Assembly (NCBI RefSeq): GCF_009002475.1
Contig: NZ_AP019860.1
Location: 6,090,501 to 6,154,500, forward strand
Length of the DNA stretch: 64,000 nt
Source of the DNA: Candidatus Uabimicrobium amorphum
Lineage (GTDB): Bacteria; Planctomycetota; Uabimicrobiia; Uabimicrobiales; Uabimicrobiaceae
Direction: 5' to 3'
The translations under genes and the position numbers were made by a program. The notes under the pieces are model-generated. The model was given only the letters and a program-made list of their open reading frames with translations. It was not told where the DNA came from and searched no databases. Numbering within the stretch: position 1 is the stretch's first letter; each line of letters starts with the position of its first letter. Below are positions 43,769-62,175 of the stretch, one piece after another.

Positions 43769-45463
43769 ATGAATTCAAAGTCAGAGCTTCACTATTCTAT
43801 GGGAACTTATTCGCTACTTGATGATTGTAAAATGTTTATCAAAAAGGCAATATTAGGTTTTCTTTCCTTACTTTTTCTGTTCTTAGTATCCCAAGAATGG
43901 CAAAATCCACTTTTTAGGTGTACATTTTTCTTCGCTTGTGTTTTCTGTTTTGCAAAAACTTTGCTTGTTACTTCGAAAAATACTATAAAAAATGTTACTT
44001 TTGACAATACTAAACAGCAAATTATTTTTCGTCATAACAAAGTACCCGATAATAGATACGTTATTCCTTATTTTGATATTTCTCATATTGAAATAAAACT
44101 AGTTGATGCAACAGAGGATGAGGTTGTATTCGATTTTTGTGCTATAAAAAAAAATAAAGGCGTTTTTTGGTTTCACGAGGCAAGATTTTCATCGAGTTTT
44201 TATAAACAAAGACTTGAAGAACAAACCGCTGAACTACATGCTAATACCGGCTTTCATATTCAAGTAGAAAGAGAGGGATTTTCTTATCCTCAGATAAAGC
44301 AATACCAAAAACTATCAAGAAATATATCTAAAATTGAATCTCTAGAATACGCGGTACATAGTGAACTTCAACGTTGGGTTGCAAACTTTGCTCTTTTTAT
44401 TCTATGGGCATGCTACTTTATTTTTGTTTGCCAAATCAACGATATTTCCTATTTAATGAGAATACTTTTATTTATTTTTTTTGTCGTGACTTGTATGCTT
44501 AGTGTTCCGCTTCTTGCTCCAATTCACAGCATAAAGATAAAAAAAGGAAAAAAAACTAAAATTATTCCTCGTGATAAACTATATCTTTTAGCATATCTAC
44601 CCATTAGCTTTCCTCCTTCTTTTGTAAAACGAATATCATTAAATCATAATAAACAACAAGACTTTTTTTTTGAAGTACTTTTGGAAGATTCTCTCAATGA
44701 AGTTCAAAGGAAAGGGGTGAAAAATATTGGGGCTTTTTACAGTGAATTTGCAATCAACTCATATAAGTTAACTATTTATGCAAAAACAATAGCTAAAGGT
44801 GACTTTTTACTGAATGAATTACAAAGTATGGAGGAATTTTTTCTAAAAATCGATGAAGATATTGCTAATAACAGGAATGAGGAGAATCTCTTTTCCACAG
44901 AATTAGAGAACAAAAAACTTTCAAAGCTAGGTTCATGCAATTATGCTAATAAGTTTACTGCAAAAATACCAGACGAAGATCGTCTCTCATTACAATTTGC
45001 CCGTTATAAACTATATGGTTTTTTCGGAAAGATAAATTTTACTTTTCTCGATGAGGGAGTAGTAATACAAGGACAAAAATTATTGCAAAGTAGATCATTT
45101 TTGTTACTAGACTTTCTAATTCTGCTTGCAAGTTTTTCCTTATTTCTCAGTGAATCTATTGGAAGTTTTTGGATTTTTTTATTTGTTAGTTTTGCGTTAA
45201 GCGCAAGTAAGATTTTACGAAATAGTAACTCCGAAATAACCGTCCCATTGGCTTCATTTGCCAAAATAAACACTCCTCGAAAAGAATTATTAGGAAATAA
45301 CGCAGAAATAGTGATTGAGGTTCAAGTTAACAAAGAGAAAATAAAACAAACCCTTGTTTTTGAAGATCTCACCCAAGCGGAAGAATTTTACAAGACTTTT
45401 TATTTTTTCTATACAAATGAAAATGGAAAAGATATATCCATGATAGATTCCCCCAGCAGTTAG
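43769..45463 (+). CDS. Multi-spanning membrane protein of unknown function
   Basis: 564 residues. Pairs of membrane helices lie near 25-66, 210-255 and 450-485. Each is followed by a soluble segment of beta-rich character (for example VTFDNTKQQIIFRHN and INFTFLDEGVVIQGQ), suggesting repeated PH-like or similar small domains. The gene is more AT-rich in appearance than the housekeeping block. GGAGGG precedes the ATG. I recognise no family. It stands between a remnant-filled spacer and a convergent zinc-ribbon gene. Confidence 0.78.
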   Translation: MNSKSELHYSMGTYSLLDDCKMFIKKAILGFLSLLFLFLVSQEWQNPLFRCTFFFACVFCFAKTLLVTSKNTIKNVTFDNTKQQIIFRHNKVPDNRYVIPYFDISHIEIKLVDATEDEVVFDFCAIKKNKGVFWFHEARFSSSFYKQRLEEQTAELHANTGFHIQVEREGFSYPQIKQYQKLSRNISKIESLEYAVHSELQRWVANFALFILWACYFIFVCQINDISYLMRILLFIFFVVTCMLSVPLLAPIHSIKIKKGKKTKIIPRDKLYLLAYLPISFPPSFVKRISLNHNKQQDFFFEVLLEDSLNEVQRKGVKNIGAFYSEFAINSYKLTIYAKTIAKGDFLLNELQSMEEFFLKIDEDIANNRNEENLFSTELENKKLSKLGSCNYANKFTAKIPDEDRLSLQFARYKLYGFFGKINFTFLDEGVVIQGQKLLQSRSFLLLDFLILLASFSLFLSESIGSFWIFLFVSFALSASKILRNSNSEITVPLASFAKINTPRKELLGNNAEIVIEVQVNKEKIKQTLVFEDLTQAEEFYKTFYFFYTNENGKDISMIDSPSS

Positions 45464-45618
45464 TCATTATTTTCCGGACTGCTATAGTAATTTAATGTCA
45501 CAGTTCGTAGCACAACTGTACCGCAATTGTAAGCTCTATACTATCGTACTTATTAACTTAACACCTACTCTTTTTTCGAAGGGACATGATAAAATTTCTC
45601 GTTTCTTGTAGAAAAATT

Positions 45619-45918
45619 TTACATTGTGTAAGCTATTATGTAAGGTAGAAGTGGTTCTGTTATTTGTGCGGTCATATATAAACCAATTAGAATGCCAATA
45701 AAAATACTATTTGAGTGTAACCAAAAAATAACAAAGTTAATGACAAAAAGAACTGCAATAGTCGAAATCACTGTCGATTTTGGGCTACGCTTTTTCTTTG
45801 TTGTTTTTGTTGTTTTTAAGGTAAAAGGTTTGTCACACTTGGGACAATTTCCTTTAAAAATGCCTGTAGCACGAATGAGGCTACGACACCCTGAACATCG
45901 GAATATAAACTTTTTCAT
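45619..45918 (-). CDS. Small zinc-ribbon membrane protein
   Basis: 99 residues from ATG at 45918 (GGGAG upstream); an in-frame extension to 45969 is unlikely. The N-terminal ribbon CSGC...CPKC (residues 8-28) should bind zinc. A basic Lys/Thr linker is followed by a hydrophobic region (about 52-90) with two membrane helices. Similar zinc-ribbon-TM proteins are common in planctomycetes without known function. It is divergent from the kinase cluster and abuts the kinase remnant. Confidence 0.65.
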   Translation of the reverse strand: MKKFIFRCSGCRSLIRATGIFKGNCPKCDKPFTLKTTKTTKKKRSPKSTVISTIAVLFVINFVIFWLHSNSIFIGILIGLYMTAQITEPLLPYIIAYTM

Positions 45919-45930
45919 AACTACTCCCAT

Positions 45931-46218
45931 CGTGCATTGTTTATTTTTCAATACGACGCACAAATACATATTGATGCGCTGAAAAAAGTTGATCCGAGCA
46001 GCGAAAAAGTACTATACCAAAAGTTGCATTAAATCGAAATAGAACAAAAAGTAGATAATTTTATCAAAGCTTTTACCAAAATGTGTGGTGTGATTTTGTT
46101 TTATGTGTTTTTGCTACCATTTACCTTTCTACTCTTGTCGATTTTGTTTTGTCAGAAAGTGCTTGAATTGGGTAGAAATTTGATAGGTGGCCAGAAAAGT
46201 AAATACAAGGAAATTTGT
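45931..46218 (+). pseudogene. 3' remnant of a third tandem kinase paralogue
   Basis: The frame reads RALFIFQYDAQIHIDALKKVD, then a TAA at 46030, then IEIEQKVDNFIKAF and a hydrophobic segment, running without a stop into the ATG at 46219. By eye it aligns with the end of the TPR-like region and first membrane helix of the 46219 kinase (NDLHLAADQLAKLD and following helix). It is best read as the tail of a lost upstream copy. Confidence 0.6.
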
Positions 46219-48105
46219 ATGAAAGACAATTTTAGATATATATGGCAAAAATTAGCCAACGATGACAATTTGGAAGACGTAAAAGAAATTTACCATACGT
46301 ATAGACCACCACAAGAAACATATAGTAATTTTTCGACGCTAAAACATACTTTTTCACAAGAAGCAACGTTACACTCGGAAAGTACGTTCTCTGAGGGAGA
46401 AACCCTGGCGCCAGAGACATTTTCACAAGAAGAAACGCAGGCCTCAACGAGCACCTTCTCAGAGAATGCAACTATTGCGTCGCAAAAATCTTTGAATGTA
46501 GATGAGCCGTCCGCGAACAAAAATAAAGAGTATGATGATTTAGAAAAAATCAATCAAGGGGGAATGGGAGTTATTTTCAAGGCATGTCAGACGATACTCA
46601 ATCGCGATGTTGCAATTAAAAAGGTACTTGGTAAGGCACAGCAAGAAAAGTTTATGGCCGAAGCGTTGGTAACAGCCTATCTTGAACATCCAAATATTGT
46701 TAGTGTATACGATTTGGACTATGATGAACAAGGTGAGATGTTTATCGCAATGAAGCTCGTTGAAGGAGTTTCTTGGCGAGAGTTATTGTACAAGGAAAAT
46801 CAAAAAGCCTTTTGTTACAAACATATCGAAAGGCATTTACAAATTCTCATTGATCTTTGTAACGCTGTTGCTTACGCTCATAGCAAAAATATTGTACACT
46901 GCGATTTAAAACCTGAAAATGTGATGATTGGAGATTTTGGCGAAGTTTTATTAATGGATTGGGGAATTGCTGTCAATATAAGTGAATCAAAAACGGCATG
47001 GGCTCTTCACAAATCGCATGTCAAGTCTCCGATGGGAACTCCATGTTATATTCCACCAGAACTTGCTGAAGGTCAGGGGGACAAGATTTGTCCAGCAACA
47101 GATATTTATTTACTAGGTGGTATTCTATACGAAATTTTACACCAAAGACCACCACATATGGAAAAAAGCACTTGGTTAACTCTTCTTGCAGCAAAACAGG
47201 GAAAGATGGCGACTTTTAATGAAGATCTGCCTCAAGAACTTAAAAATATTTGTATGAAAGCTCTCTGTAAAAATCCAGAAGATCGCTACCAAAACGTTCA
47301 GGAGTTTCAACAAAACCTACAGTCTTTTCTGGTGCATCACGAGAGTATCCTTCAAACAGAGAGTGCGATAAATATTTTACAACAGTGTTATTTTCGGATA
47401 GAAAGCGATACCGAAATGGGAGGTCTCGATGAGAATTTGGTACAGCGTAGTTACCAAAAGATTCCACAAGCCATTGAAAAGTTGCAAAGTGCTCTCGATA
47501 TGTGGCCAGAGAATTCTCGGGCGTATATCGAGATGCAAAACAGCTATTCGCGTTATGCAACAGTTGCTTTGTACAATAATGACCTTCATCTCGCAGCAGA
47601 TCAACTTGCAAAATTAGATAGCGAAACCTCGAACTATGATGAACTGCGGGAAAAACTGCGAAATATCCAAAAAGTGAAAAAAACAATCCGAAGAATTACG
47701 ATAATGTTTATCATTTTAGCAATGACAAATACGATTCCGATGTTGTTGCTCCTCGTTTCTATACTAGTTCCATATACATTGGCAAACATGCATAAATACA
47801 GACCTCTTAATCGCAAGATTTTAAATACCAGTATTTTTTTTACCTTACTAATAGGCATACCGTTTCTTTATGCGGAACTATATATGCCAAGATCTATTCA
47901 TTTATATCGATTTTTTGGGATAATTTCCAATTGTGTATTTATTGTATTTATTATTGTGTATCCAATGTTTCTATATTTTGTCAACAGGAAACAGAAGTCT
48001 TTCCGAAGAGACGTTGAGTACGTATTTTCGCACTGCCTACCGAATTTTTTATACAGTTTTTTATTTCTGTTTTACTATTTCATAATAGCTTTGATGCATG
48101 GATAA
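46219..48105 (+). CDS. Transmembrane Ser/Thr kinase, HCD/DWG type (tandem copy 1)
   Basis: 628 residues. ATG 46219 is chosen (AAGGAA upstream and alignment with the next gene's N-terminus) over an in-frame ATG at 46081 that lies in remnant sequence. The N-terminal leader holds a repeated Thr motif (TFSQEAT, TFSEGET, TFSQEET, TFSENAT) that could be phosphorylated or bound by FHA-type domains. The kinase domain (about 107-375) has INQGGMGVIFKA, VAIKKV, HCDLKPEN (Arg of HRD replaced by Cys) and MDWGIAV (DFG to DWG), variants common in planctomycete kinases. A TPR-like stretch and about four membrane helices (about 494-625) follow. Its stop overlaps the start of the next kinase. Confidence 0.9.
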   Translation: MKDNFRYIWQKLANDDNLEDVKEIYHTYRPPQETYSNFSTLKHTFSQEATLHSESTFSEGETLAPETFSQEETQASTSTFSENATIASQKSLNVDEPSANKNKEYDDLEKINQGGMGVIFKACQTILNRDVAIKKVLGKAQQEKFMAEALVTAYLEHPNIVSVYDLDYDEQGEMFIAMKLVEGVSWRELLYKENQKAFCYKHIERHLQILIDLCNAVAYAHSKNIVHCDLKPENVMIGDFGEVLLMDWGIAVNISESKTAWALHKSHVKSPMGTPCYIPPELAEGQGDKICPATDIYLLGGILYEILHQRPPHMEKSTWLTLLAAKQGKMATFNEDLPQELKNICMKALCKNPEDRYQNVQEFQQNLQSFLVHHESILQTESAINILQQCYFRIESDTEMGGLDENLVQRSYQKIPQAIEKLQSALDMWPENSRAYIEMQNSYSRYATVALYNNDLHLAADQLAKLDSETSNYDELREKLRNIQKVKKTIRRITIMFIILAMTNTIPMLLLLVSILVPYTLANMHKYRPLNRKILNTSIFFTLLIGIPFLYAELYMPRSIHLYRFFGIISNCVFIVFIIVYPMFLYFVNRKQKSFRRDVEYVFSHCLPNFLYSFLFLFYYFIIALMHG

Positions 48106-50428
48106 AATAATGAATGAAACTGAGTTTAGAGAATTGTGGACAAAAACTGTTGGTGACAATTTAAGTAACTGCGAGATAAAAAAAACATATAAGCCCACAG
48201 ACATAGACAAAAATTTTTCTCATCAGACACAAACATTTTCAGACGGGCAAACTTATAGTCGTAAAACCATCGTAAATGCATGCGACATTCATGATGTGGA
48301 TTACAATAATATTCAAGAGATCAATCGCGGTGGCATGGGGATCATTTATAAAGCTTTTCAGAGAAAACTACATCGCGAAGTAGCGCTAAAAAAAATCTTG
48401 GATGCGCGGCAGGGAAAACAGTTTGTTGCCGAAGCTTTGGTTACAGCTTACCTTGATCATCCGAATATTGTCCCTATATACCAGCTGAAAAAAGATATGA
48501 ATGGTAATATCTTTTTTGCAATGAAACTTGTCAATGGAATACCATGGCGCGAATCTATTTATTCTAAAACAGAGGATATGGATTTAAACAAAAACTTACA
48601 AATTTTATTAAATGTATGTAAGGCTGTAGAGTATGCTCATAGCAAAAACATTATCCACTGCGACCTCAAGCCTGAAAATGTTATGTTGGGAGACTTTAAC
48701 GAAGTCCTGGTGATGGATTGGGGGATCGCCGTTAGCATGGAAGAGAATGAACATGCCATTTATAAGGGGGATATCAATAAACCGTTGGGAACACCTACAT
48801 ACATGCCTCCAGAATTGGCGACGGGTAGTGGGTTAGATATTTGTCCGGCAACGGACACGTATCTTTTAGGAGGTATTTTATACCAAATTTTACATCAAAA
48901 ACCGCTTCGTAATGGAAGTAATCTTTGGAGTATTATTTGTCAAGCAAAGGAAGGAATATTTTCCGAAATAGACAAATCACTTGCGCCATATCTGCAAACG
49001 ATTTGTAAAAAAGCATTGCATAAAGACATTTCTCAGCGTTATCAAAATGTAACAGACTTCAAGGACGATATTGAAATGTTTTTACGTCACCAAGAGAGTT
49101 TTGCGCTGGTACAAAAAGCGCGAAAAATAGACGTTCTATCCTACAATAAAACGCAGGCTACAGTAGTCGCACGTTATTTACCAATCATAACGGCGTTTTT
49201 GAGCAAATTCCTTCACCTATGGAGAGAGTTTACCAATTACCGTACAAATACTTCCAAATCCATTTACGAAAATTTCCAGAAAGTCATTTCTCTTTATAAA
49301 AATTCTCTAAGGATATGGGACGGTAACAAAGACGCTTATCAAGAATTACAGAATACGTATCTTCGTTATGCACAAACGGCGTTCGATATGGGAGACGTAA
49401 AACTTGCCCAGTTGCAGTTAAAAGAAATTGATCGCAGTGTTGTGTCTCCCAAACGATTAGAAGAAAAGATTCATCAGCAAATGGCGTTAAATAAAAGAAA
49501 CCATGGTCATTGGTTTACTCTGGCTCTATTGTTGCTATTGTTGCCAATGGGAATAAATTACTTGCCAATGTTCGTCTTGTTTTTTGTGATATGTTACCGT
49601 ATTGAAAAACTCATTGCGCGAAAAATCGAAAACAGTGCTCCATTGCGAAATACCGTAGTAGCCGCTTTTCTGACGATCGTAATGTTTAGCATTACGATGT
49701 ACTCAAAATGGAACCCGTATTGGTCATACTTACTTTATTTTACGGTGATGCTTTGTTATTCGTGGTTGTGGTTGCCACAAGCTAAGTTTTTCCAGCGAAT
49801 GCAAGTTTCCATGCAACAAACACTCCCGTATTTGGCTTGGTGGTTTATGTTTTCTCTCACGATGACGTCAAAATTTATACTACCAGCTATCATTTGTTGT
49901 AATCTATTTTGGGAAAAAATTTATTTTTACTTTTTGCGAATACCCTTCGATCACAAATATGCGTTTTATAGGTATTTATTGGTGTATTTTATATTTTCGT
50001 ACGTTCGAGATTTTATTTTGATTTTTTCTCGAGGAATAACACCTGCCGCGGCTGCATTTATTATTATGTGTTTTGTTTATGGATTTATGCTGTGTAAGTG
50101 GTATCAAAAAAAGTATTCTATCTCAAAAAAGAAGTCTTTACTCTTCACAATCGTGTTGTTTTTGTTACACATAGTATCTTACGGCTCTGCATCTTTTCTT
50201 CTCCGATATTACATCGATATGTCTTACACCGTGTTAGTTGTCATTTCTTGCGTGTGGCTGTGTAAGGTGGTTCTCGAAATAGAACAGAATATCCTATTTC
50301 ATTGTGGAATGCTTATCCTTCTACTCGCGTACTTTCCTGGTTGGTATTGTGTGTGCTGTTACTTATTATTGCTTTCTATTGAGGACTTTTGGCGAAGCCG
50401 GAAAGCTGTTAACCATACCCTTTTATAA
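48098..50428 (+). CDS. Polytopic Ser/Thr kinase, HCD/DWG type (tandem copy 2)
   Basis: 776 residues from ATG 48098, which overlaps the previous gene by 8 bases; ATG 48110 is an alternative. It is a paralogue of the upstream kinase: a similar acidic/Thr leader (FSHQTQTFSDGQTY), a kinase domain (about 65-335) with INRGGMGIIYKAF, VALKKI, HCDLKPEN, MDWGIAV and PPEL, then a helical TPR-like region. The membrane part is much larger, with about nine or ten helices (about 471-765), unusual for this kinase class and reminiscent of a sensor or transporter-like module. The two kinases are presumably co-translated and may heterodimerise. Confidence 0.9.
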   Translation: MDKIMNETEFRELWTKTVGDNLSNCEIKKTYKPTDIDKNFSHQTQTFSDGQTYSRKTIVNACDIHDVDYNNIQEINRGGMGIIYKAFQRKLHREVALKKILDARQGKQFVAEALVTAYLDHPNIVPIYQLKKDMNGNIFFAMKLVNGIPWRESIYSKTEDMDLNKNLQILLNVCKAVEYAHSKNIIHCDLKPENVMLGDFNEVLVMDWGIAVSMEENEHAIYKGDINKPLGTPTYMPPELATGSGLDICPATDTYLLGGILYQILHQKPLRNGSNLWSIICQAKEGIFSEIDKSLAPYLQTICKKALHKDISQRYQNVTDFKDDIEMFLRHQESFALVQKARKIDVLSYNKTQATVVARYLPIITAFLSKFLHLWREFTNYRTNTSKSIYENFQKVISLYKNSLRIWDGNKDAYQELQNTYLRYAQTAFDMGDVKLAQLQLKEIDRSVVSPKRLEEKIHQQMALNKRNHGHWFTLALLLLLLPMGINYLPMFVLFFVICYRIEKLIARKIENSAPLRNTVVAAFLTIVMFSITMYSKWNPYWSYLLYFTVMLCYSWLWLPQAKFFQRMQVSMQQTLPYLAWWFMFSLTMTSKFILPAIICCNLFWEKIYFYFLRIPFDHKYAFYRYLLVYFIFSYVRDFILIFSRGITPAAAAFIIMCFVYGFMLCKWYQKKYSISKKKSLLFTIVLFLLHIVSYGSASFLLRYYIDMSYTVLVVISCVWLCKVVLEIEQNILFHCGMLILLLAYFPGWYCVCCYLLLLSIEDFWRSRKAVNHTLL

Positions 50429-50617
50429 ATTTCCTAGAGTTTAAATGCATTTGTTTTTCTCTTAAATAAAATTGTATTTACTTACGGATAAGTTGTTCGT
50501 GCCGGATTTACTCTAATATTTTCTTGTGAAGATGATATATCTTGCTTTTTGTTATTTTTATTCTTTTGTATGTATATCTCGGCATTATATCCCTCAAAAT
50601 TTTACAGAGAGGTCACA

Positions 50618-53600
50618 GTGAGAGCGATTATTCTTTTTTGGCTCGTCTTAACTTTTGCGACAGCACAACATAACATGCAGCATGTGCCACACCGAAAAGC
50701 AAAAGATAAACACCATATAGTTAAGTACACCAAAAATTTAGGTGGAATAAGTATTTTGGGACACAGTCATGATTTTGGAACACGTCTAAAATATAATAAA
50801 TATCACGCCTTGGTTTTGGGTATTAACCGCTACGATAACTTTACCAATCTTACAGCACCTAATTTTGATGCCGCAGAAGTGGCATCTGTTCTCGATTTAC
50901 GCTATAAGTTTGATAATATCGTCTTGTTGGTCGATCAACCGCCGCGTGTTTTTTTGGGAAATGTAAAACGCAAAGTCTTGCCGCGTATAAACAGACAAGT
51001 AATAGTTGATGAATTGCAAAAACTTAAGAGAAAAGTACAACCTGGTGATGCCTTATTGTTCTATTACGCGGGACATGGAATTCCTGGGTATTTGGTCGCT
51101 GCTGATAGCAAAGATTCAACAACAACGATGTTTTCTCTCTCAAAAATAGCCCAAGAGTTGGAGTCAATGTCCGCACGCCATACTTTGATGATACTAGATA
51201 GTTGTTTTAGCGGGTCTATGTTCGAGGCAAAGTATCGTCCCAGTTTTTCTCACTTAACTAATAAGTCTTTTTTTTCCCCGGGAGGCAATAACCTTAGTCG
51301 TCTATTCAAACGCCGTGTATTTCAAGTAATTACCAGTGGTTCTAGTGACGAGGCCGTTGCGGATAAAATACAAGCTTCGACCGAGTATGCCCAAAAGTTT
51401 AAAAATAGTCGTGGACACTCACCATTTACCGCTGTTCTCTTGCAAGCGCTATATGGATTTATTGGAAGAAGTGATGGCATAATTCTTACCTCACAGCTTG
51501 GTTATTACATGGCGGATGTACTTGTAAATGATGAAGATGTGGCGGCATCACAAGTACCGCGTTATGCGAACTTAGGGGGGGAGGGGGATTTTTTGTTTAT
51601 TCCCGCTTACAAAGTAATAAATCCAAAGCTGATAGCTCCACTATATCAAGAGGGAAAAGTTTACGAACAGTTACGGATGTCGGCATGCTACGCCTTGCGA
51701 GATTTTATCGAGGCTAGTTCTTCTCAAGAACAAGCTTTTTTCATGCGTAGTGTCATCGTTCATCTTACTCAACTATTGGAAGATATGCAGAGCAGTCCTC
51801 GGTTAGCGGCTTGCGAAGTTTTGGCGGATTGGGCTAGTATCCATGGAAATCAAATAGAGGAATTTAGCAAAGTAGTTGTGCCTATGACAAAGCTCCTAGG
51901 GGCACAAAGTAGCTCAGAGTTTTTAAAATCTGCTGCCGCACGTTGTTTAGGAAAGTTACCCAAATATAGCACCAAACAATCTTTGTTGGCAATACATGAG
52001 TATAACGAAGCGCTACTACAAAAATGGACAAAGATTAGCAGAGGGCGGTTTCTTCCTGTAAAAGTCAAAGCACGACGTACATCCATTGAAAATACGCGTG
52101 GAAATCTAACTATTGAAAATCTGGAGTTGACAAGAGAAACATGTGAATGGCTATTGACCACAGGTATTAAATTAATTGAAGAAGACGAACGGCAAGCGGA
52201 TAAAAACCATGAAATGGGAAAAGCTCTTCTTGAAAAGTCGCAAAGCTTGGCAAAGGAAAAAAGATTTTTTGAATCAAAGCTTCTCGCTGCGCGAACCATC
52301 CGTTCTAAAAATAATCAGCGTCCCCTATTGAAGAAAAATACACCGTCATGGCGTACAGCACAAAACTTAATTGCTCGTGGCCCGAATTTACAGCTTATGA
52401 TGCAAATTCCCGTCGATCTAGATATTAAAATGTCTCATGGAACTGTGGAAGAAAGTGGTAGCTATATAGATGAAAATACGCAATACGAGGCGTTTCGACA
52501 CAAAGGCAGCATCTTAGCTACTTGCTTTGGAAGATACGGAAATACGTTTCTCTCCGGAGGAGAAGATGCAACGATAAAACTGTGGAATATTAATAGCTTA
52601 GGCTTTCAAGATCAAAGACGTTTACAAACATTTACTGGACACAGTGCAGTGGTGAACAGCGTTGTTTATAGCCCAGATAACAAAACGTTTGTTTCGGGAA
52701 GTGACGACCGTTCTATCAAACTTTGGGATATAAAAACGAACCATGAAATTTTCACGTGTACCTCACACCATGGGGCGGTGAATAGCGTCGCATACAGTCC
52801 GGATGGCAAAACGTTTGTTTCGGGAAGCGACGACCATTCTATCAAAATTTGGGATGCTGCAACAGGAGAAGAAATACTTTCGTGTATAGCGCACAGTGCG
52901 GCAGTGAATAGTGTTGCGTATAGTCCAGATGGCAAGATGCTTATTTCAGGAAGCGATGATCACTCTATCAAAATTTGGGATGCTGCAACAGGAGAAGAAA
53001 TACGCTCATGTATCGCGCACCGTGGGGCGGTGAACAGCGTCGCATACAGTCCGGATGGCAAAACTTTTGTTTCAGGAAGTGATGACCGCTCTATCAAAAT
53101 TTGGAACGCCAAAACCGGTAAAGAAATTCTATCGTGTACCGAACACAGTGCCGTAAACAGTATAGCATACAGTCCTGATGGCAAAACTTTTGTTTCAGGA
53201 AGTGATGATTATTCTGTCAAGCTCTGGGATATAACAAATGGTATTAGTATAAAAACTATGTATGGACACTACAGTAAAGTGCTTAGTACGAATTTTTCCG
53301 CAGATGGTGGCAAATTAATTTCCGCCAGCGAACAAGGGAACATCAAATTATGGAATATTACGACTTACCAAATGAATAACCCTAGCACTGATGGTATCAC
53401 CTATATAAATTTTGTTCCGAGCGGAGAACACTTTCTATTTCAAGCAGCAAACGGCACAATACAAAGACAGAACTTCACGCCAAAAAGAAATTTACAACAA
53501 CTGTTGATCGATTCGCAAATGCTAGTATCAACTTGTAGTTATGATGGACGTCTTTTAGCTGTAGGAAAAAAGAACGCACTTGATCTATGGGAGATCGGCG

Positions 53601-56600
53601 AACAAAAATGTACTTTGCGCAATAGATCTTCGCAAAGCGGTAAAATAAACGCTGTGGAGTTTAGTCGCGATGGAGAAATGCTAGCTTACGCGAGTTCTAA
53701 CACCATAAAAATACGGGATGTTGTACTGGGTTCTATAATGGCAGCCCTAAAAGGGCATAGTGCTCCTATACATCATGTAAGATTTGATCCCAGTGGCCAT
53801 GCATTGGCTTCCGCGAGTATGGACAAAACTATTCGTCTATGGAATACGAAAAACGGACATGAAATTGCGACCTTGTGGGGCCATTCTGGTTATATACATG
53901 CTCTTGTATATAGTGCTGACGGAAAATGGCTTGTCTCCGCAGATAGCGAGGGAAAAGTTTTCATTTGGAATCCACTGACAGGTCAAAAAATTGCTGATTT
54001 TAGCGCAAACTCCGAGAACGTATTGTGTTTGGCCTTTAGTCCCGACAGTAAAATATTGGCGTGTGGTGGTAAAGACAAAAGTATCAAGATGTGGGATGTG
54101 AACACTCAACGTCTAGTTGCAGTGGTCATGGATGAAGCACCAGTAACAAGTATCGCATTTAGCCCAGATGGAACATTGCTCGCTTCGGGAACAAGTACTC
54201 ATAGTGTAAGACTGTGGGATGCGCGCATTAGTAAAAAAGTCATGACCCTAAAAGCACACGATGCAAATATACAAAAAGTGTTTTGTGGTGAAAACAACAC
54301 TTTCTTTTCGGTTGCCAATGACGGCTCAATCGCGATGTGGAACAAGTTGCGAAAAGAAAAATCGCTGCCTGCTGTCGACCATAGTGCAATCACAATCGCC
54401 CCTAATGCAAAAAGTATTGCTATGGCACAACACAAAACCGTTCGCCTGATGGATGTATCTGGAAATACAACATCCACATTCGAAACAGACAATATTGTGT
54501 GTAGCATGGCTTTTTCCAAAAATGGCCAAAACTTGGCCGTAGCACAGTACAATTCCATTCATGTATGGAGCACTTTCAACAACAAGAAGATAGCCGTTTT
54601 TGAGGGGCACGACCGAGAAATAACTACATTGGCTTTCGGTGATAAATTCTTAGTTTCCGCAGGTTTAGATAACATTATAAAGTTGTGGGATGTAGAGAAT
54701 AACACTCTAGTGGCAAATTTGTTGGGGCATACACGCAATATCCATCACCTTGTTTTTGACCAAGCGGAGAAACTACTCGCTTCCGCTAGCGCAGACAAGA
54801 CGATCATTGTCTGGGATACTTCTACTTTTAAGAAAGTTTTTACTCTAGCTGGGCATACTTCTGGTGTTAATAGTGTTATTTTTTCGCCGCAAAATCACTT
54901 TTTAATATCAGCGAGTAATGACAAAACCATTAAGGTATGGGATGTAGAAAGTGGTCATGAAATAGAAACATTACATGGACATCAAAGCTATGTTAGCGAT
55001 TTAGGGTTTAGTGACGATGGTAAAAATTTGATCTCCGGAAGTTGGGATCGAACAATAAAAATATGGGACTTTGCGACGTTGTCTTTTGACAAATACCTGG
55101 AGCTATATGATCTTGAATCTACACACCGAAGCAATCAACAATTATTTTTCGATGGCCATAGCTATGCACAAAATAACAAAACGCGATGTAGGAAATTAAT
55201 AAATTGCGGGAATCTTGATGCTGCAGTATTTGTTTTCTCTCATCTAACTGTAGAAGATAAAAAGGCTCTACGAGCCTATTTGATATACGAGCTTGCCAAA
55301 ACACAAATGGAAACTGCTAACATCGGCAGGAAAAGTTTATCAGCAAAGCGCAATAAACAGATTCACACAGTGACTACCGCAAGTTTCGATGCGCAAAACA
55401 TGAACGCGACTTTATGCGTTGCGAGCGTAGACGCCGAGAATTTTCATTTGGCATTAGATTATTACGACAAGATTCGCTCTACACAAAAAAAACAAAAATT
55501 ACGTAAACATATTGTCGATCATCTGATACGAAAAATTACCGATTGTATTGAATCGCAAGCAGTTCCCTTAGATAAATATTTAAAATATGTAGATACATTG
55601 CAAATAGATTTATTCAACTACCTACATGTACAGCACTTTTTTGCGATTGGAATTTCTTATTTACACCAAGGCAATTTTGTCAAAGCATGGCCATATTTAA
55701 AAAAATCCAGTCCATTGCACCAAGCATATCGCTATTTGCTACTAATTGGCTACGCTAAACGGGCCAAAAAAGAACAATTATTACCTGAGATGATTGCAAA
55801 AGCACAGCAAGAAAGGCAAAATTCTTTTTCGTGGAATCTTCTTGATTTTTACACCGAGAACATTTCGGAACAACAATTATTTGCAATGGCAGATATAGAA
55901 AATGCCGATAAACAAGTCCGATTATGTGAGTTTTACTATTATGTGGGTCTTCACCATTTAAATCGTGGAGATGTAAAGCGCGCACAATTGTATTTTGAAA
56001 ATTGTGTGAAATACACAGTGGGAAAGCATATCGAGCCGCACCTTGCCAGTATAGAATTGCAAAGGTTAAAGCAGCAAAAGCGACAGAGAAATACCCGTTT
56101 AACGCCATACATAAATCGTGCTAAACGCTATATTGAACAAAATGAAATTAACAAAGCGATAACCGAATATACATTGGCGCTACAACTATTTCCAGACAAT
56201 CCGCACTTGTACGTTAAACGCGCTGCAATGTACAAAAAACAATCCAACAACGACGCATGTATCGTTGATTACCTACATGCGATTGCCCATGGTGCGCCGC
56301 AAGAGGCCGATCAAATAAAACAGCTATCCCCTTCGCTGTTACAAAAAATACTCCGTGGTCGAGATACGCAAATAAAAATGATCGCACTTAACATTGTTGC
56401 GCAAAAATCTTTCGGCAACCTCGCGGAAGTCATCGCACAAAATATAGATCAACAAGAAAAAAACGTTCAAGTCGCGGCAATTCATTGTCTCGGAAAAATA
56501 GGTAACGCCGACACGCTAAAATTTTTAGCCAAGTATGTCACGAGCGAAGACGCATGGATTCGTAATGTCACGCTAGATTCTTTAAAGAGTATCCATCCAT

Positions 56601-59329
56601 ATTGGGTATATCTACCGCAAGCAAAAAGTATGGTTTCGGAAATCCTACAAGGTTTAGCCCATAAAAGTTTACCAGTTCATGTAATATCGCTGAAGCTTTT
56701 AGAAAATATCGACAAAAGTTGGATAGACACTCCTCAAGTAAAAAAGATCGCAACGCAGTTTATTGGTTATTTATCCTCCGAAGACCTGGAATTTCTCAAA
56801 ATTGTCCAAAAAGTTTTGCAAAATTCCGTGGTTGAAACAACCGTTCCCATATTAATTGAACAAGCAGCAAATAATTCCGCTATGCGCCAACAAGTTTACA
56901 AGATGATATACCGTATATATCAAAATGCCTCTACACAAAAAAGTCCACAAACAGTAGAAACAATTCATGCGATACTCGTAAAGTCTCTGCAAAGCCCACA
57001 GTGGCAAATTCGTCTAACCGCCATACAAATTGTAAAAGAGCTCAATTACGACACCCCGGAATTGATGAAACTCGTAAAAGACAAAAATGCCAAAATTCGT
57101 CTGGAAAGTGTTCAAGCTTTAATCAAACTAAGATGTAAAATGCTTGCCAATGAGTATCGCCGACTTTTAGATGACAATCAACAAATTCAGCTACAGGTAC
57201 TAAAGATTTTACCACAAATAGCAGATAAATCCATTGTTCCTAAAGTGATTACATTTCTTGAACGCCGCAATTTTACATTACAAATAGAGGCCATACGAGC
57301 TCTAAAAAGTATAGCGAAGTCTCCCGTACCACAGCTCGAACCACTTCTAAGTAGTCATAATAATTTACTTGTGTTAGAGACGATCAAAGCGTTGCAAAGG
57401 CTAGGCACAAAATCCACTGTTCCTAAATTGTTTCCACTCCTTGCCCATCGCAATGAGTCCATTCGTATAGAAGCAAGAAAAGCCATTGAGATAATCGGAG
57501 CCAGACCTTTTGTTACCGATTTGGTTGCTCTTGTCGATGTTTCTAGTCAAGAAACACAGCTGGAAATCACCAAAATTCTAAAAAGAGTTGGTGACAAGAA
57601 CCTACAACCATTGTTATTAAAACTTCTCAAAAACAGCAGCGGAAAACTGAAAGCGGAAGTTATCTACACTCTGCGACGATACGGAAATGCGCGTCTTGCT
57701 CCCGAGTTGGTAAAAATGTTTGATGACCATAGCAAAGAAGTAAAAATCGCGGCGATAAAAGCTCTGCAAAAATTTGGTAATAACTCCTATATTCCCGACT
57801 TTGCTGCAATGCTGGGCGATAACAATATCTCCGTAAAAATGGCTGCGATAAGCGCTTTAGAAAATTTGAATACAAAACAAACGATAACTCCGCTATTTCA
57901 GGTTGTCACAAACCAAAAAGAACCTTCAGAAGTCCGTGTTGAGGCGCTGTACGCTTTAGAAAATCATGTGCCAGAGGTTATTCTCGAACTCATTAACATA
58001 CACACAAAAGAACGAGACTCGGAGGTGGCGACAACCATTAGATCAATTATTGAAAATGCCTTGTATGAATACCAGCACGAAATTAGCACGAAATTATTAC
58101 AAAGCCTTAAAAGCAAAAACAAAGAGCAGCGCACCACCGCCATATTTGGCCTGCGTATGATTGGTCAAATAAACCCGGCGCGATTGACACAACTTTTGCG
58201 AGACAGCGCGCCACAAATACGAGCGTTAGCTGCGAAATTGTCTGGCGAGATAGGGGGCGTTTCCGATATAAATCTAATAAAAGCTCTCAAGGACAATGAA
58301 CCAATAATTGGTATCGCGGCAACCATCGCTTTAGCAAAAATAGGCGAGTTATCTGCGATGCGACGACTGGTGGATTTGCTTTCCAAGACAAACGATAAAA
58401 AAATGCGTCGTACCATTATCAAAGTCTTGGGAAATACAAAAAACAAAATCGTTGTCCCCATACTTGAGAAACACTTACAGGATCACGACGACGCCACACG
58501 AAAATCTGCGGCGTTGTTGTTAGGAGAGATTGGAAACGCACGTACTGTTCGCCAACTATTAGAACTTTTGCAAGATCCAAATCAGGAAGTGCAGAATTGC
58601 GCGGTGAAATCTATTGTGCAAATAAGCCAACGCCTACCACAAAAACTGACATACATTATCCCAAAAATCTTAAGTGACGTAAAAGACAAATACCAAGTCA
58701 ATGCAATATTTACCAATCTTTGCCCTGCTTTAAAAAATCGCTACTCCACACCTTTTGATAATTTATATTCACGCCACGAATATATAAAAGAACTATTGAT
58801 GGACAAAGAGGAGCTGAATATCCACGAATTGCTTGTCGATTTACGCGAAGGAAAAAAATATGCAAAGGAAGTCGCAGCTTATTCCATCGCAAAATTTGCT
58901 ATCGATTCTGCACCATTCTTAGAAAATTTACTACAAGACAATGATCCAGGAGTCCGATTGATCGCCGCATATACCCTAAATAAAACTATGCCAAACCAAA
59001 AATATGTTGATGCAATGAATACATCCAAACTACAAGCGACACAAACATTGGAAATATTCAACAATATATTTGCTTGTCAAGTCTGGCAAGCGTATCAAGC
59101 TCAAAGAATTGAGGACATCGATGAAGTAACACTTTCGCTACTAGCCACATCGCAACATATATACCAAAAAAATATAGCGATTATCGCATATGCGTGGATC
59201 GGCAAAACCGAGTTGGCAAAGTCAGTGTTTGAAGAATCGAAAAAACAAAAGGGGTACTATTTTGAAAAGGCGATAGAGAAGGCATTCACTAACCAAAAAA
59301 GCTTGAGTGATTTTTTGACGAATCTTTAA
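50618..59329 (+). CDS. Giant exported caspase - WD40 (21 units) - TPR/helical - HEAT protein
   Basis: 2903 residues. GTG 50618 is chosen: GAGAGG 6 bases upstream and it opens directly into a signal peptide (RAIILFWLVLTFATAQ); an in-frame ATG at 50549 lacks both. A caspase-like C14 domain (about 58-330) has catalytic His153 in YYAGHG and Cys196 in DSCFSG. A helical linker (330-625) precedes 21 WD40 units (627-1493), exactly three times seven, so three propellers are likely; units 2-6 are near-identical at DNA level. A helical/TPR-like region (1500-1905) and about 25 HEAT-type repeats (1905-2895) complete it. It probably acts as a protease on a large protein-binding scaffold outside the cytoplasm; targets are unknown. 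It follows two kinases by 190 bases. Confidence 0.92.
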   Translation: MRAIILFWLVLTFATAQHNMQHVPHRKAKDKHHIVKYTKNLGGISILGHSHDFGTRLKYNKYHALVLGINRYDNFTNLTAPNFDAAEVASVLDLRYKFDNIVLLVDQPPRVFLGNVKRKVLPRINRQVIVDELQKLKRKVQPGDALLFYYAGHGIPGYLVAADSKDSTTTMFSLSKIAQELESMSARHTLMILDSCFSGSMFEAKYRPSFSHLTNKSFFSPGGNNLSRLFKRRVFQVITSGSSDEAVADKIQASTEYAQKFKNSRGHSPFTAVLLQALYGFIGRSDGIILTSQLGYYMADVLVNDEDVAASQVPRYANLGGEGDFLFIPAYKVINPKLIAPLYQEGKVYEQLRMSACYALRDFIEASSSQEQAFFMRSVIVHLTQLLEDMQSSPRLAACEVLADWASIHGNQIEEFSKVVVPMTKLLGAQSSSEFLKSAAARCLGKLPKYSTKQSLLAIHEYNEALLQKWTKISRGRFLPVKVKARRTSIENTRGNLTIENLELTRETCEWLLTTGIKLIEEDERQADKNHEMGKALLEKSQSLAKEKRFFESKLLAARTIRSKNNQRPLLKKNTPSWRTAQNLIARGPNLQLMMQIPVDLDIKMSHGTVEESGSYIDENTQYEAFRHKGSILATCFGRYGNTFLSGGEDATIKLWNINSLGFQDQRRLQTFTGHSAVVNSVVYSPDNKTFVSGSDDRSIKLWDIKTNHEIFTCTSHHGAVNSVAYSPDGKTFVSGSDDHSIKIWDAATGEEILSCIAHSAAVNSVAYSPDGKMLISGSDDHSIKIWDAATGEEIRSCIAHRGAVNSVAYSPDGKTFVSGSDDRSIKIWNAKTGKEILSCTEHSAVNSIAYSPDGKTFVSGSDDYSVKLWDITNGISIKTMYGHYSKVLSTNFSADGGKLISASEQGNIKLWNITTYQMNNPSTDGITYINFVPSGEHFLFQAANGTIQRQNFTPKRNLQQLLIDSQMLVSTCSYDGRLLAVGKKNALDLWEIGEQKCTLRNRSSQSGKINAVEFSRDGEMLAYASSNTIKIRDVVLGSIMAALKGHSAPIHHVRFDPSGHALASASMDKTIRLWNTKNGHEIATLWGHSGYIHALVYSADGKWLVSADSEGKVFIWNPLTGQKIADFSANSENVLCLAFSPDSKILACGGKDKSIKMWDVNTQRLVAVVMDEAPVTSIAFSPDGTLLASGTSTHSVRLWDARISKKVMTLKAHDANIQKVFCGENNTFFSVANDGSIAMWNKLRKEKSLPAVDHSAITIAPNAKSIAMAQHKTVRLMDVSGNTTSTFETDNIVCSMAFSKNGQNLAVAQYNSIHVWSTFNNKKIAVFEGHDREITTLAFGDKFLVSAGLDNIIKLWDVENNTLVANLLGHTRNIHHLVFDQAEKLLASASADKTIIVWDTSTFKKVFTLAGHTSGVNSVIFSPQNHFLISASNDKTIKVWDVESGHEIETLHGHQSYVSDLGFSDDGKNLISGSWDRTIKIWDFATLSFDKYLELYDLESTHRSNQQLFFDGHSYAQNNKTRCRKLINCGNLDAAVFVFSHLTVEDKKALRAYLIYELAKTQMETANIGRKSLSAKRNKQIHTVTTASFDAQNMNATLCVASVDAENFHLALDYYDKIRSTQKKQKLRKHIVDHLIRKITDCIESQAVPLDKYLKYVDTLQIDLFNYLHVQHFFAIGISYLHQGNFVKAWPYLKKSSPLHQAYRYLLLIGYAKRAKKEQLLPEMIAKAQQERQNSFSWNLLDFYTENISEQQLFAMADIENADKQVRLCEFYYYVGLHHLNRGDVKRAQLYFENCVKYTVGKHIEPHLASIELQRLKQQKRQRNTRLTPYINRAKRYIEQNEINKAITEYTLALQLFPDNPHLYVKRAAMYKKQSNNDACIVDYLHAIAHGAPQEADQIKQLSPSLLQKILRGRDTQIKMIALNIVAQKSFGNLAEVIAQNIDQQEKNVQVAAIHCLGKIGNADTLKFLAKYVTSEDAWIRNVTLDSLKSIHPYWVYLPQAKSMVSEILQGLAHKSLPVHVISLKLLENIDKSWIDTPQVKKIATQFIGYLSSEDLEFLKIVQKVLQNSVVETTVPILIEQAANNSAMRQQVYKMIYRIYQNASTQKSPQTVETIHAILVKSLQSPQWQIRLTAIQIVKELNYDTPELMKLVKDKNAKIRLESVQALIKLRCKMLANEYRRLLDDNQQIQLQVLKILPQIADKSIVPKVITFLERRNFTLQIEAIRALKSIAKSPVPQLEPLLSSHNNLLVLETIKALQRLGTKSTVPKLFPLLAHRNESIRIEARKAIEIIGARPFVTDLVALVDVSSQETQLEITKILKRVGDKNLQPLLLKLLKNSSGKLKAEVIYTLRRYGNARLAPELVKMFDDHSKEVKIAAIKALQKFGNNSYIPDFAAMLGDNNISVKMAAISALENLNTKQTITPLFQVVTNQKEPSEVRVEALYALENHVPEVILELINIHTKERDSEVATTIRSIIENALYEYQHEISTKLLQSLKSKNKEQRTTAIFGLRMIGQINPARLTQLLRDSAPQIRALAAKLSGEIGGVSDINLIKALKDNEPIIGIAATIALAKIGELSAMRRLVDLLSKTNDKKMRRTIIKVLGNTKNKIVVPILEKHLQDHDDATRKSAALLLGEIGNARTVRQLLELLQDPNQEVQNCAVKSIVQISQRLPQKLTYIIPKILSDVKDKYQVNAIFTNLCPALKNRYSTPFDNLYSRHEYIKELLMDKEELNIHELLVDLREGKKYAKEVAAYSIAKFAIDSAPFLENLLQDNDPGVRLIAAYTLNKTMPNQKYVDAMNTSKLQATQTLEIFNNIFACQVWQAYQAQRIEDIDEVTLSLLATSQHIYQKNIAIIAYAWIGKTELAKSVFEESKKQKGYYFEKAIEKAFTNQKSLSDFLTNL
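51575..51587 (+). repeat. G7-A-G5 homopolymer tract inside the caspase gene
   Basis: Seven G, one A, five G, encoding GGEG at the end of the caspase domain (about residue 322). Such runs are rare in this AT-rich DNA. Loss or gain of one G would shift the frame and cut off all scaffold domains. Confidence 0.8.
52640..53268 (+). repeat. 126-bp tandem coding repeats (WD40 units 2-6)
   Basis: Units begin at 52640, 52766, 52892, 53018 and 53144, spaced exactly 126 bp (42 codons). They share near-identical stretches such as the codons for VNSVAYSPDGKTFVSGSDD. Units elsewhere in the same gene are far more diverged. Confidence 0.9.
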
Positions 59330-59705: not shown

Positions 59706-62030
59706 ATGTACCGAATACTTTTAGTATTGTTTGTTATTTGTTCAACATTGATCGCACAAGATAGAAATGTAAATGGAAGTATCAATGACACGTCTAACAA
59801 TGGTAGCATAAACTTACGTGCGGACAATGGTGACATAGGCATACGTGGTAAATCCATCACCCTGGTGCCACTTTCAAAAGTGATCAATACTTATGGTCGG
59901 ATTATCATTCATCATGACAACTATCTTCAACTTGGTCAATCCACTATTCTACAAGAGAAAAATGGAGATGGAAGTATCTATAGTCCCAACAATTTAAGAG
60001 TAACTTCCGGAGATATTAACATCGATGTTAGAAAAGGAACTTTATATATCAATGCACCGAATATGGGTAGCAAAAGCGTAGGGACAACATCTATTGTTTT
60101 GCAAAACCACAAAGAAGGATTTGTATGGTCGATGGGAGCATACAAGGATGGTTATTATATCTATCGTTCTAACAATAAACGCTACGCTTTATTTGCCGAT
60201 AATAATTGCAATGTTGGAATTGGAACAACAAATCCTCAAGCCAAACTACACATTGGTGGCAGTAATCCCAAAATTGCCTTTGGCGAACAAAATGCTAGAT
60301 ATGCTATCGATATGTGGGAGGAAAAGCTAAAAGTAACTGTACCTGGTGTAGCCACATTGATGGAGTTTTTTGGAGATTCTACAGGAGCGTCCATTAAAGT
60401 TAATGGAACAAGCTATTTTACAGGTACATTGAACGTAAATACTGGCAATGGACGTTTGGGAGCACATTTTAAAAGTAGTCATGAACATGGGCCATTTGCT
60501 CAGTTTAGTGGTAAGTCCGACGAAAATTTATTTATTGGTTATGGTCCATCTTCTGGTGGAGGTTATGTTCAATCCACTAAATCATTGCACTTAAACTCAC
60601 CGAGGGTTCTAGTTAATGGTAGACTTGAAATTCAAAAGGGAAAGCACATTTTTGTTGGTGAATATACACACATTAGCGAAGGTGACAACCATGTTGGAAC
60701 AATTTTTAATGGACAAGGCGGTTTAAATCTAACAGGTAAGAAACTTGATTTGGTCTCACGCGATGGGATTGTAGGTGTTATATCGACGACTACCACGGCC
60801 AACATTAAGTTGACAAATAGCACAAATAACAATTGGCAAATGGGTGCTGGAGAAACAGGCTACTATGTTTATGATGTAAATAACAAAAACTATGCACTAT
60901 TTGCCAATAACAAAGGCGATTTAGGTCTTGGTACTACCAATCCCCGAGGAAAGTTACACATTGGTGGTAGTAATCCCAAAATTGTTTTTGGTGAACAAGC
61001 GGACTTTCAGAATGGTCGATATGCTATTGATATGTGGGAAGAAAAGCTAAAAATCACCGTACCTGGTGGAGGTGTATTTATGGAGTTTGCTGGTAATTCT
61101 GCAAAAAAATCTGTCAAAATTCCTGCAAATGTAGGATTGGAAGTTGCTGGCGATACTAAATTTATAGGGTCGGTAACAACAAACTCTATTAATATTAGTG
61201 GTGCTTCCGTTGGAACTTTTAGCGATAAGTTGATTTTAACCGCACCCCAGTCATCCGTTGGTGCTATGGCTGTCTCTAAAAATGACGTACGTCTTTCTCA
61301 AAACGTTGCTTTCATCGCAAATAACGCTCCCATAACCATCAATCACATCGAATCTAACAGTGTTACTCCCAAAGTGCACTTAACACAACAAGGCAATAGT
61401 TATTTTAATGGTGGTAATGTAGGTATTGGTACAACTTCTCCATCGGCAAAACTCCATGTCAATGCCACAAGCCAATATGGATTGCCCAGTGGTATTACCT
61501 CAGAGACAACAGGTAATCTTAACACCAGTGATGAATATCTGAGTTCTCTTTTTAAAGCAAAGTTTTCTGGCGAAAGTAAAAGTGGTTTTGCTTTTAGCGT
61601 TGTTGACTCTAAAAACGTTATGAAATACGGTGTTGATAGTGAGGGAAAAGCTGGATTTGGCTGTAAACCGCTACCAGGCTTTCAGCTTGCAGTCAATGGT
61701 GGAGTAAAAGCCAGAGAAGTCGAAATATCAATTGAAGGTTGGCCTGACTTTGTTTTTGATGAGGGCTATGAACTTGCGTCACTAGCACAGGTGGAAAAAC
61801 AAATCAAGCAAAACAGACACTTGCCGGATATTCCTTCGGAAGCAGAAGTCAAAAAGAATGGTATATCTATTGGTAAGATGCAAGCGAAATTGTTACAAAA
61901 AATCGAAGAGTTGACCTTGTATACGATAGATCAAGAAAAGCGTATTTCTACACAAAATCAACAAATTAAAGAAATGAAGCTATATATGGAAAAGATGCAA
62001 AAAATCATTAAAAAGTTATCAGATGAATAG
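59706..62030 (+). CDS. Exported tail-fibre-like repeat protein
   Basis: 774 residues. It has a signal peptide (MYRILLVLFVICSTLIA). The body has repeated beta-helix-like segments ending in GIGTTNPQAKLHIGG-type motifs (near 170, 415 and 580). Two long copies of LHIGGSNPKI...RYAIDMWEEKLK (near 178 and 420) reflect internal duplication. The C-terminus resembles the tail-fibre/chaperone-like ends frequent in Bacteroidota surface proteins (VFDEGYELASLAQVE, HLPDIPSEAEV, ISIGKMQAKLLQKIEEL), finishing in a coiled coil (about 720-774) likely to trimerise. A fibrous cell-surface adhesin is the likeliest role. AAAGGG precedes the ATG. Confidence 0.85.
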   Translation: MYRILLVLFVICSTLIAQDRNVNGSINDTSNNGSINLRADNGDIGIRGKSITLVPLSKVINTYGRIIIHHDNYLQLGQSTILQEKNGDGSIYSPNNLRVTSGDINIDVRKGTLYINAPNMGSKSVGTTSIVLQNHKEGFVWSMGAYKDGYYIYRSNNKRYALFADNNCNVGIGTTNPQAKLHIGGSNPKIAFGEQNARYAIDMWEEKLKVTVPGVATLMEFFGDSTGASIKVNGTSYFTGTLNVNTGNGRLGAHFKSSHEHGPFAQFSGKSDENLFIGYGPSSGGGYVQSTKSLHLNSPRVLVNGRLEIQKGKHIFVGEYTHISEGDNHVGTIFNGQGGLNLTGKKLDLVSRDGIVGVISTTTTANIKLTNSTNNNWQMGAGETGYYVYDVNNKNYALFANNKGDLGLGTTNPRGKLHIGGSNPKIVFGEQADFQNGRYAIDMWEEKLKITVPGGGVFMEFAGNSAKKSVKIPANVGLEVAGDTKFIGSVTTNSINISGASVGTFSDKLILTAPQSSVGAMAVSKNDVRLSQNVAFIANNAPITINHIESNSVTPKVHLTQQGNSYFNGGNVGIGTTSPSAKLHVNATSQYGLPSGITSETTGNLNTSDEYLSSLFKAKFSGESKSGFAFSVVDSKNVMKYGVDSEGKAGFGCKPLPGFQLAVNGGVKAREVEISIEGWPDFVFDEGYELASLAQVEKQIKQNRHLPDIPSEAEVKKNGISIGKMQAKLLQKIEELTLYTIDQEKRISTQNQQIKEMKLYMEKMQKIIKKLSDE

Positions 62031-62175
62031 TCTGTCGATTTGATGGAATGGACTCCTTTATTGGAGTTCATTCTATTGTATAGATTATGATTGCGTGTGA
62101 TAGAAACTGTTTACACCTTAAATTCTTATCATGCTTTGCCTTTAATTGTTGGATTTCATCAAAAAGGAAATACGA

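Follow-up and report, generated by a model that had tools for sequence, protein, structure and literature searches.

Giant caspase-domain proteins with export signals and exchanged repeat scaffolds in Candidatus Uabimicrobium amorphum

Introduction

Candidatus Uabimicrobium amorphum is a planctomycete with phagocytosis-like engulfment of prey, a habit known from very few bacteria. Its genome consists of a single contig of 9,503,417 bp with a GC content of about 40%. In a stretch of 64,000 nucleotides of this contig (bases 6,090,501–6,154,500, hereafter the window), an earlier sequence-only reading had noticed two membrane kinases followed by an exported caspase on a very large repeat scaffold, and had proposed that the three genes form a kinase–caspase signalling or cell-death module whose scaffold could sense envelope, prey or phage proteins. 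The question raised by this locus is whether the kinases and the caspase belong together, and what an exported caspase on such a scaffold might do.

Results

Two membrane kinases precede an exported caspase giant

The proposed gene order, two membrane kinases and then a co-directional exported caspase on a WD40/TPR/HEAT scaffold, was confirmed by the open reading frames, the Pfam matches and the signal peptide. The ORF of kinase 1 is open from ATG 46081 (full span 46081–48105, plus strand). The ATG at 46219 is nevertheless probably the likelier start, giving a gene of 46219–48105, since it has its own Shine-Dalgarno-like AAGGA and the N-terminus read from there matches that of kinase 2; a hydrophobic N-terminal stretch encoded from ATG 46081 may hence go untranslated. 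Kinase 1 (PF00069, E 1.9e-38) possesses all of the catalytic motifs VAIKK, HCDLKPEN and DWG in an N-terminal kinase domain, which is followed by about four to five C-terminal hydrophobic segments. The ORF of kinase 2 (48098–50428, plus strand; PF00069, E 2.9e-35) overlaps that of kinase 1 by 8 bp and encodes intact catalytic residues (VALKK, HCDLKPEN, DWG) and a polytopic C-terminus. By their PF00069 matches and intact catalytic residues, both proteins are bacterial Ser/Thr kinases (Pkinase). A simple hydrophobicity scan, on which the kinase topology is based, detected no signal peptide on either protein when read from its likelier start, and the kinase domains should accordingly lie in the cytoplasm.

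Between the end of kinase 2 and the start of the caspase gene lies a gap of 190 bp. Promoter and terminator scans of 45400–50800 remained at chance level, and nothing was seen at position 45931, where the proposed module had been taken to begin. Upstream of kinase 1, the region 43769–45463 encodes a 564-aa protein with several hydrophobic segments and without a match in Pfam, NCBIfam or PADLOC. The window also contains a caspase gene remnant on the minus strand (41809–42321; PF00656, E 2.5e-9), which corresponds to the C-terminal half of a caspase domain and is interrupted by one in-frame TAG stop. The defence systems catalogued in PADLOC were considered as candidates and dismissed, as only generic models were matched, PD-T4-6 and mad6 by the kinase domains and 'caspase' by the caspase, and all of these are domain-level matches.

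The frame of the third ORF extends upstream to TTG 50549, but GTG 50618, which has the Shine-Dalgarno sequence GAGAGG in front of it, is the best start and gives a protein of 2,903 aa. It begins with MRAIILFWLVLTFATA (50618–50665, plus strand), which on inspection is a signal peptide of the standard type with cleavage before Q. On the same strand follow a metacaspase-type caspase domain (50804–51604) and a helical HEAT-like linker (51605–52483), which matches HEAT_2 weakly (E 0.003, below the Pfam cut-off) and forms an alpha solenoid in the predicted structure. The scaffold proper consists of a WD40 array of about 20 blades in three propellers (52484–55138; PF00400 in 15 stretches), a TPR-containing segment (55139–56398; PF07719, TPR_2, E 1.1e-11) and a C-terminal HEAT-repeat solenoid (56399–59326; PF13646, HEAT_2, E 7.6e-73 in 12 stretches). 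Within the WD40 array, 52651–53220 is a young run of near-identical repeats with a tandem period of 126. No NTPase domain is among the Pfam matches listed for this giant, for its segments or for proteins P0001–P0008.

The caspase domain is of the metacaspase type

The caspase domain matches PF00656 with 54.8 bits (E 1.4e-14; cut-off 21.4 bits) and thereby falls into Peptidase C14 by profile. Its best sequence match in the PDB is metacaspase-1 (E 3.8e-10). A structure model of 621 aa, for which the window protein and the sequences of related loci served as input (19 rows), reached a mean pLDDT of 76.8 with a core above 90, and a Foldseek search with this model retrieved the MALT1 paracaspase, metacaspases and legumain (E 7e-7 to 1e-4). 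As judged by sequence and modelled fold, the domain is a clan CD caspase of the metacaspase type, with metacaspases as its nearest relatives by sequence.

Numbered from GTG 50618, the catalytic residues are His153 (codon 51074–51076) and Cys196 (codon 51203–51205), the latter as the sequence-only reading had correctly picked out. The Asp two residues before the Cys, in a D-x-C motif, is what we take to be the S1 residue of metacaspases. It predicts cleavage after Lys or Arg, and the giant is thus probably a protease of this specificity, both its activity and its P1 preference being inferred.

Giants form a family of 24 with a narrow range

A profile search recovered at least 36 PF00656 matches in the genome, among them 24 giants; the genome-wide counts derive from such searches and from about 780 kb of sequence read, in which the island ORFs are mechanical longest-first picks and not curated genes. 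The giants measure 1,381–3,099 aa and align with the window protein over the caspase domain and the linker, the one at 6362846 being divergent. None of the 24 paralogues deviates at the catalytic His or Cys or at the S1 Asp. Likewise, each of the 24 has a signal-peptide-like N-terminus, as assessed by a hydrophobicity scan and inspection rather than by a dedicated predictor. Eighteen giants lie at 6.13–6.61 Mb, three at 6.95–7.03 Mb, two at 3.87–3.88 Mb and one at 2.31 Mb, so that an island of about 0.5 Mb, which is also rich in the kinase-1 subfamily, houses most of them. A motif common to the upstream regions was not found: the best 7-mer is A+T-rich and occurs in 9 of 23 stretches, with shuffled sequences reaching a maximum of 5–8. 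One island giant, at 6233713 (1,409 aa), is followed after a gap of 8 bp by a 937-aa HEAT ORF (G000:C1 6230894–6237939 of the U. amorphum contig), and the two are probably one gene split by a frameshift.

Relatives were searched with a model of 561 positions. Full-length relatives are present in one of the five other genomes of the class (the family hence occurs in two of six), and a scan of 392 genomes of the phylum detected them in only that one other genome. Among about 85,000 species genomes, close relatives were found only in "Candidatus Brocadiia bacterium MAG_51" (loci L101–L103), which we treat as one organism with the class genome, G003, as their giant copies match. Other genomes have the caspase core alone in common, at 22–37% identity. 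In G003 the caspase half is intact in at least two giant copies and missing from several others, and the MAG_51/G003 copies read have signal-peptide-like N-termini. Some MAG_51 members have lost their catalytic half or are divided between two ORFs, one with the caspase and one with the WD40 repeats (L103:3928–7158, L102:9626–14057). A weak C2 match is located at the N-terminus of L101, and the U. amorphum paralogues 7021496 and 7027010 start alike. The main text of the genome papers on the genus consulted here (including PMC6906331 and PMC11032199) does not mention caspases, nor does it describe the giant family, its size, its narrow range or the cassette exchange reported below.

Kinases and giants are probably not fixed partners

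Of the 49 kinases most similar to kinase 1, about 27 are located at 6.12–6.62 Mb. Since the island is rich in kinases as well as giants, neighbours have to be judged against that background, and adjoining kinases in U. amorphum say little about partnership because kinases are found everywhere in the island. We thus compared the 18 island giants with arrangements in which the caspase labels were shuffled among the non-kinase genes. A single co-directional kinase immediately upstream is present at 2 of the 18 giants versus 1.2 expected (P=0.35), and kinases within three genes of a giant are rarer than expected (7 of 18 versus 12.8).

The counts of kinase pairs are more favourable to a signalling or cell-death module, in which the exported caspase would be released by a signal that the two membrane kinases perceive or pass on. 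Co-directional pairs occur upstream of two of the 18 giants, namely the window giant and giant 6340684, versus 0.33 expected (P=0.03). A third pair lies upstream of giant 6233713 behind an IS21-like insertion, and removal of transposases from the gene order, a step chosen post hoc, raises the count to 3 versus 0.46 expected (P=0.005). The overlap of the two window kinases, 190 bp upstream of the GTG start, points in the same direction, and the two intact kinase–kinase–caspase loci carry sister caspase domains (support 90/91), so a shared ancestral arrangement is possible. However, the pair is absent at 21 of the 24 giants, the kinase tree resolves the pairs at the three loci as separate local duplications, and kinase and caspase domains would reside on opposite sides of the membrane. 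The arrangement is not conserved in the second genome either: at the MAG_51 loci L101–L103 no kinase adjoins the giants, and the incomplete MAG G003 contains no kinase like kinase 1 at E<=1e-60. G001, an incomplete MAG from the same family as U. amorphum, has one such kinase and no giant, so that neither of these genomes revealed a co-occurrence of kinase, kinase and caspase.

What stands of the proposed module is hence an exported and apparently intact caspase on a repeat scaffold. Its coupling to the paired kinases is not supported, given single adjacency at chance level, separate duplications and the missing conservation in the second genome. We regard the module as quite improbable, and the two kinases, which belong to an expansion of their own within the island, are probably not obligate partners.

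Other exported families and mobile genes share the islands

Two genes for exported proteins lie directly downstream of the window giant. The first (59706–62030) encodes a tail-fibre-like protein with GIGTTNP repeats and has 17 paralogues in the islands; all 18 members possess signal-peptide-like N-termini. The second (62146–63963) belongs with eight paralogues to an exported YYGPIK-type family, whose nine members gave no Pfam match above cut-off. YYGPIK genes adjoin the GIGTTNP family somewhat often (4 of 17, P=0.05). The 18 and nine copies of these families in the islands, together with the two genes next to the window giant, would fit an envelope or surface housekeeping role in which the giants act as secreted proteases that process surface proteins of U. 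amorphum itself, these families for example, for maturation or shedding. Yet giants are no nearer to these families than expected by chance (2 of 18 versus 4.4), and we consider such a role rather unlikely.

Furthermore, three kinases at 6984675–6990872, 6995211–6999923 and 7032786–7038431 are built on HEAT or WD40 scaffolds like those of the giants, one of these fusions having kinase-domain matches at several places. This suggests that the scaffolds are common to the kinase and caspase families. Mobile genes of the islands include five copies of a 416-aa transposase-like gene (6201957, 6351460, 6486587, 6494447 and 6969503), two copies of a 413-aa transposase-like gene and an IS21-like IstA/IstB pair at 6238522–6240811.

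Scaffolds are exchanged between caspase clades

To describe the relation of protease and scaffold, we grouped 19 giants according to whether their scaffold is of the HEAT or the WD40 type and whether their caspase falls in clade A or clade B. The scaffolds of the HEAT-A and HEAT-B groups are 46% identical to each other, compared to 51% and 44% within the groups. Their caspases are 53% identical to each other and closer to the WD40-bearing caspases of their own clade (60% and 64%). In the caspase tree the HEAT giants fall in two places, and uniting them in one clade costs 102 log units (AU p=1.4e-6), whereas the linker sequences join the HEAT giants in one clade (94/95) and are incompatible with the caspase clades (p=2e-4); these p-values are somewhat optimistic, since the groups were defined after inspection of the first trees. 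HEAT and WD40 scaffolds have thus been exchanged between caspase clades, with the exchange point near the caspase–linker boundary.

The tandem giants at 3.87/3.88 Mb are 94–100% identical over aa 100–600 and about 62% identical in the scaffold. Identity at fourfold sites falls in step, and dS amounts to 0.16 in caspase plus linker versus 0.63 in the scaffold. A drop in dS in the protease segment only is expected from conversion of that segment, and this pair has undergone gene conversion confined to protease and linker (aa 100–800). A recent duplication of the caspase pair, which is about 99% identical, is ruled out by the synonymous divergence of the scaffolds.

In four pairs of giants, dN/dS is 0.03–0.11 for the caspase, 0.11–0.19 for the linker and 0.29–0.44 for the scaffold, with several of the dS values near saturation. 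The protease is under strong purifying selection and the scaffold under weaker constraint, with no indication of positive selection. Since dN/dS of the scaffold remains below 1, its faster change may reflect relaxed constraint rather than diversifying selection. A diversity-generating retroelement was discarded as a source of scaffold variation, as none of the five reverse transcriptases of the genome lies in the two islands. The selection on the protease also bears on the notion that the giants are a mostly inert expansion of little function, in which duplication and mobile elements maintain repeat genes that recombine. While the transposase-rich island, the pseudogene fragments and the split copies are in line with this notion, the strong purifying selection and the intact catalytic residues in 24 of 24 copies argue against it, and we hold it to be very improbable.

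Discussion

Our analysis identifies the giants as a paralogous family with export signals, intact catalytic residues, a restricted range and a protease domain that is constant where the scaffold changes. We give an even chance to the reading that they act outside the cytoplasm as proteases which exchangeable scaffolds direct to different targets, plausibly in the course of predation. In such a mechanism, the Sec pathway would export the giant to the periplasm, the prey vacuole or the cell surface, where it would fold outside the cytoplasm. The scaffold would bind a particular partner protein or a component of the prey, and the bound or a nearby protein would be cleaved by the protease, probably behind Lys or Arg. 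Local duplication would multiply the copies, selection and gene conversion would keep the protease constant, and divergence and swapping of the scaffolds would result in a repertoire that shares a single activity and covers many targets. WD40 and HEAT proteins are unusual in the periplasm, which counts against this reading. The idea that the scaffold senses envelope or prey proteins survives to the extent that an exported repeat scaffold, as indicated by the N-termini of all 24 giants and of those in the second genome, could bind such proteins.

A role in prey processing or recognition is made plausible by reports (PMC6906331) that U. amorphum engulfs prey into vacuoles and possesses genes of a type II secretion system (T2SS) as well as 179 putative peptidases. 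No feature of the sequences themselves points to prey. Of the two organisms that carry the family, U. amorphum is the one for which engulfment is known. More speculatively, and in our estimate on the unlikely side, the giants might constitute a receptor-like repertoire outside the cytoplasm, whose exchangeable WD40/HEAT recognition scaffolds serve to distinguish between prey, kin and self or to adapt the attack to different prey. The family provides concrete proteins to seek in the vacuoles that hold prey, and it is a clear example from nature of a constant effector domain with an exchanged scaffold.

The combination of a constant protease with an exchangeable, faster-evolving scaffold also resembles the conflict systems of Kaur et al. 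(PMC7159879), and would be compatible with an extracytoplasmic immunity or self/non-self recognition with scaffolds that detect proteins of phages, competitors or kin and a caspase that kills or disarms. On the other hand, the giants are exported, neither an NTPase nor a death-like adaptor was found in the window protein by Pfam, and the genome gave no match to EACC1 (PF19953), in a search that lacked a positive control as the control genomes were likewise without a match. We judge immunity to be improbable.

Caspase–repeat fusions and systems that pair a constant caspase with variable domains are already known (PMC3501461, PMC7159879). Prokaryotic metacaspases and orthocaspases include metacaspase-WD40, metacaspase-NACHT-WD40 and NACHT-HEAT-metacaspase proteins, some of them predicted to be extracellular (PMC3501461). 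The giants share with these the p20-type caspase, the His/Cys dyad and the joined WD40, TPR or HEAT repeats. They differ in that the window giant is exported and has no detected NACHT or other NTPase domain, in their size of 1,381–3,099 aa, in the presence of 24 paralogues in one genome and in the exchange between protease and scaffold. Moreover, the His/Cys dyad is intact in all giants, compared to 64% in Planctomycetes in that survey. The fact that no NTPase domain was found, also among P0001–P0008, likewise sets the window giant apart from the NTP-dependent caspase conflict systems (NACHT/STAND/MoxR-vWA). The EACC1–caspase two-gene conflict system (PMC7159879) is similar in its constant caspase and highly variable C-terminal domains, and the EACC1-associated caspase is the nearest NCBIfam model (57.5 bits, below the cut-off of 140), but the giants have a signal peptide and soluble export in place of a membrane pair. 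U. amorphum is also known for an expansion to 525 kinases, of which a large number possess WD40 or TPR arrays (PMC11032199); the window kinases belong to this expansion, whereas the giants have the same repeat types without a kinase domain. Finally, highly repetitive prokaryotic WD40 proteins are enriched in Planctomycetes and have kinases or, in cyanobacteria, caspases as neighbours (PMC5587647). The window giant also carries young, near-identical WD40 repeats, and its caspase, rather than being encoded next to the repeats, sits inside the same exported protein.
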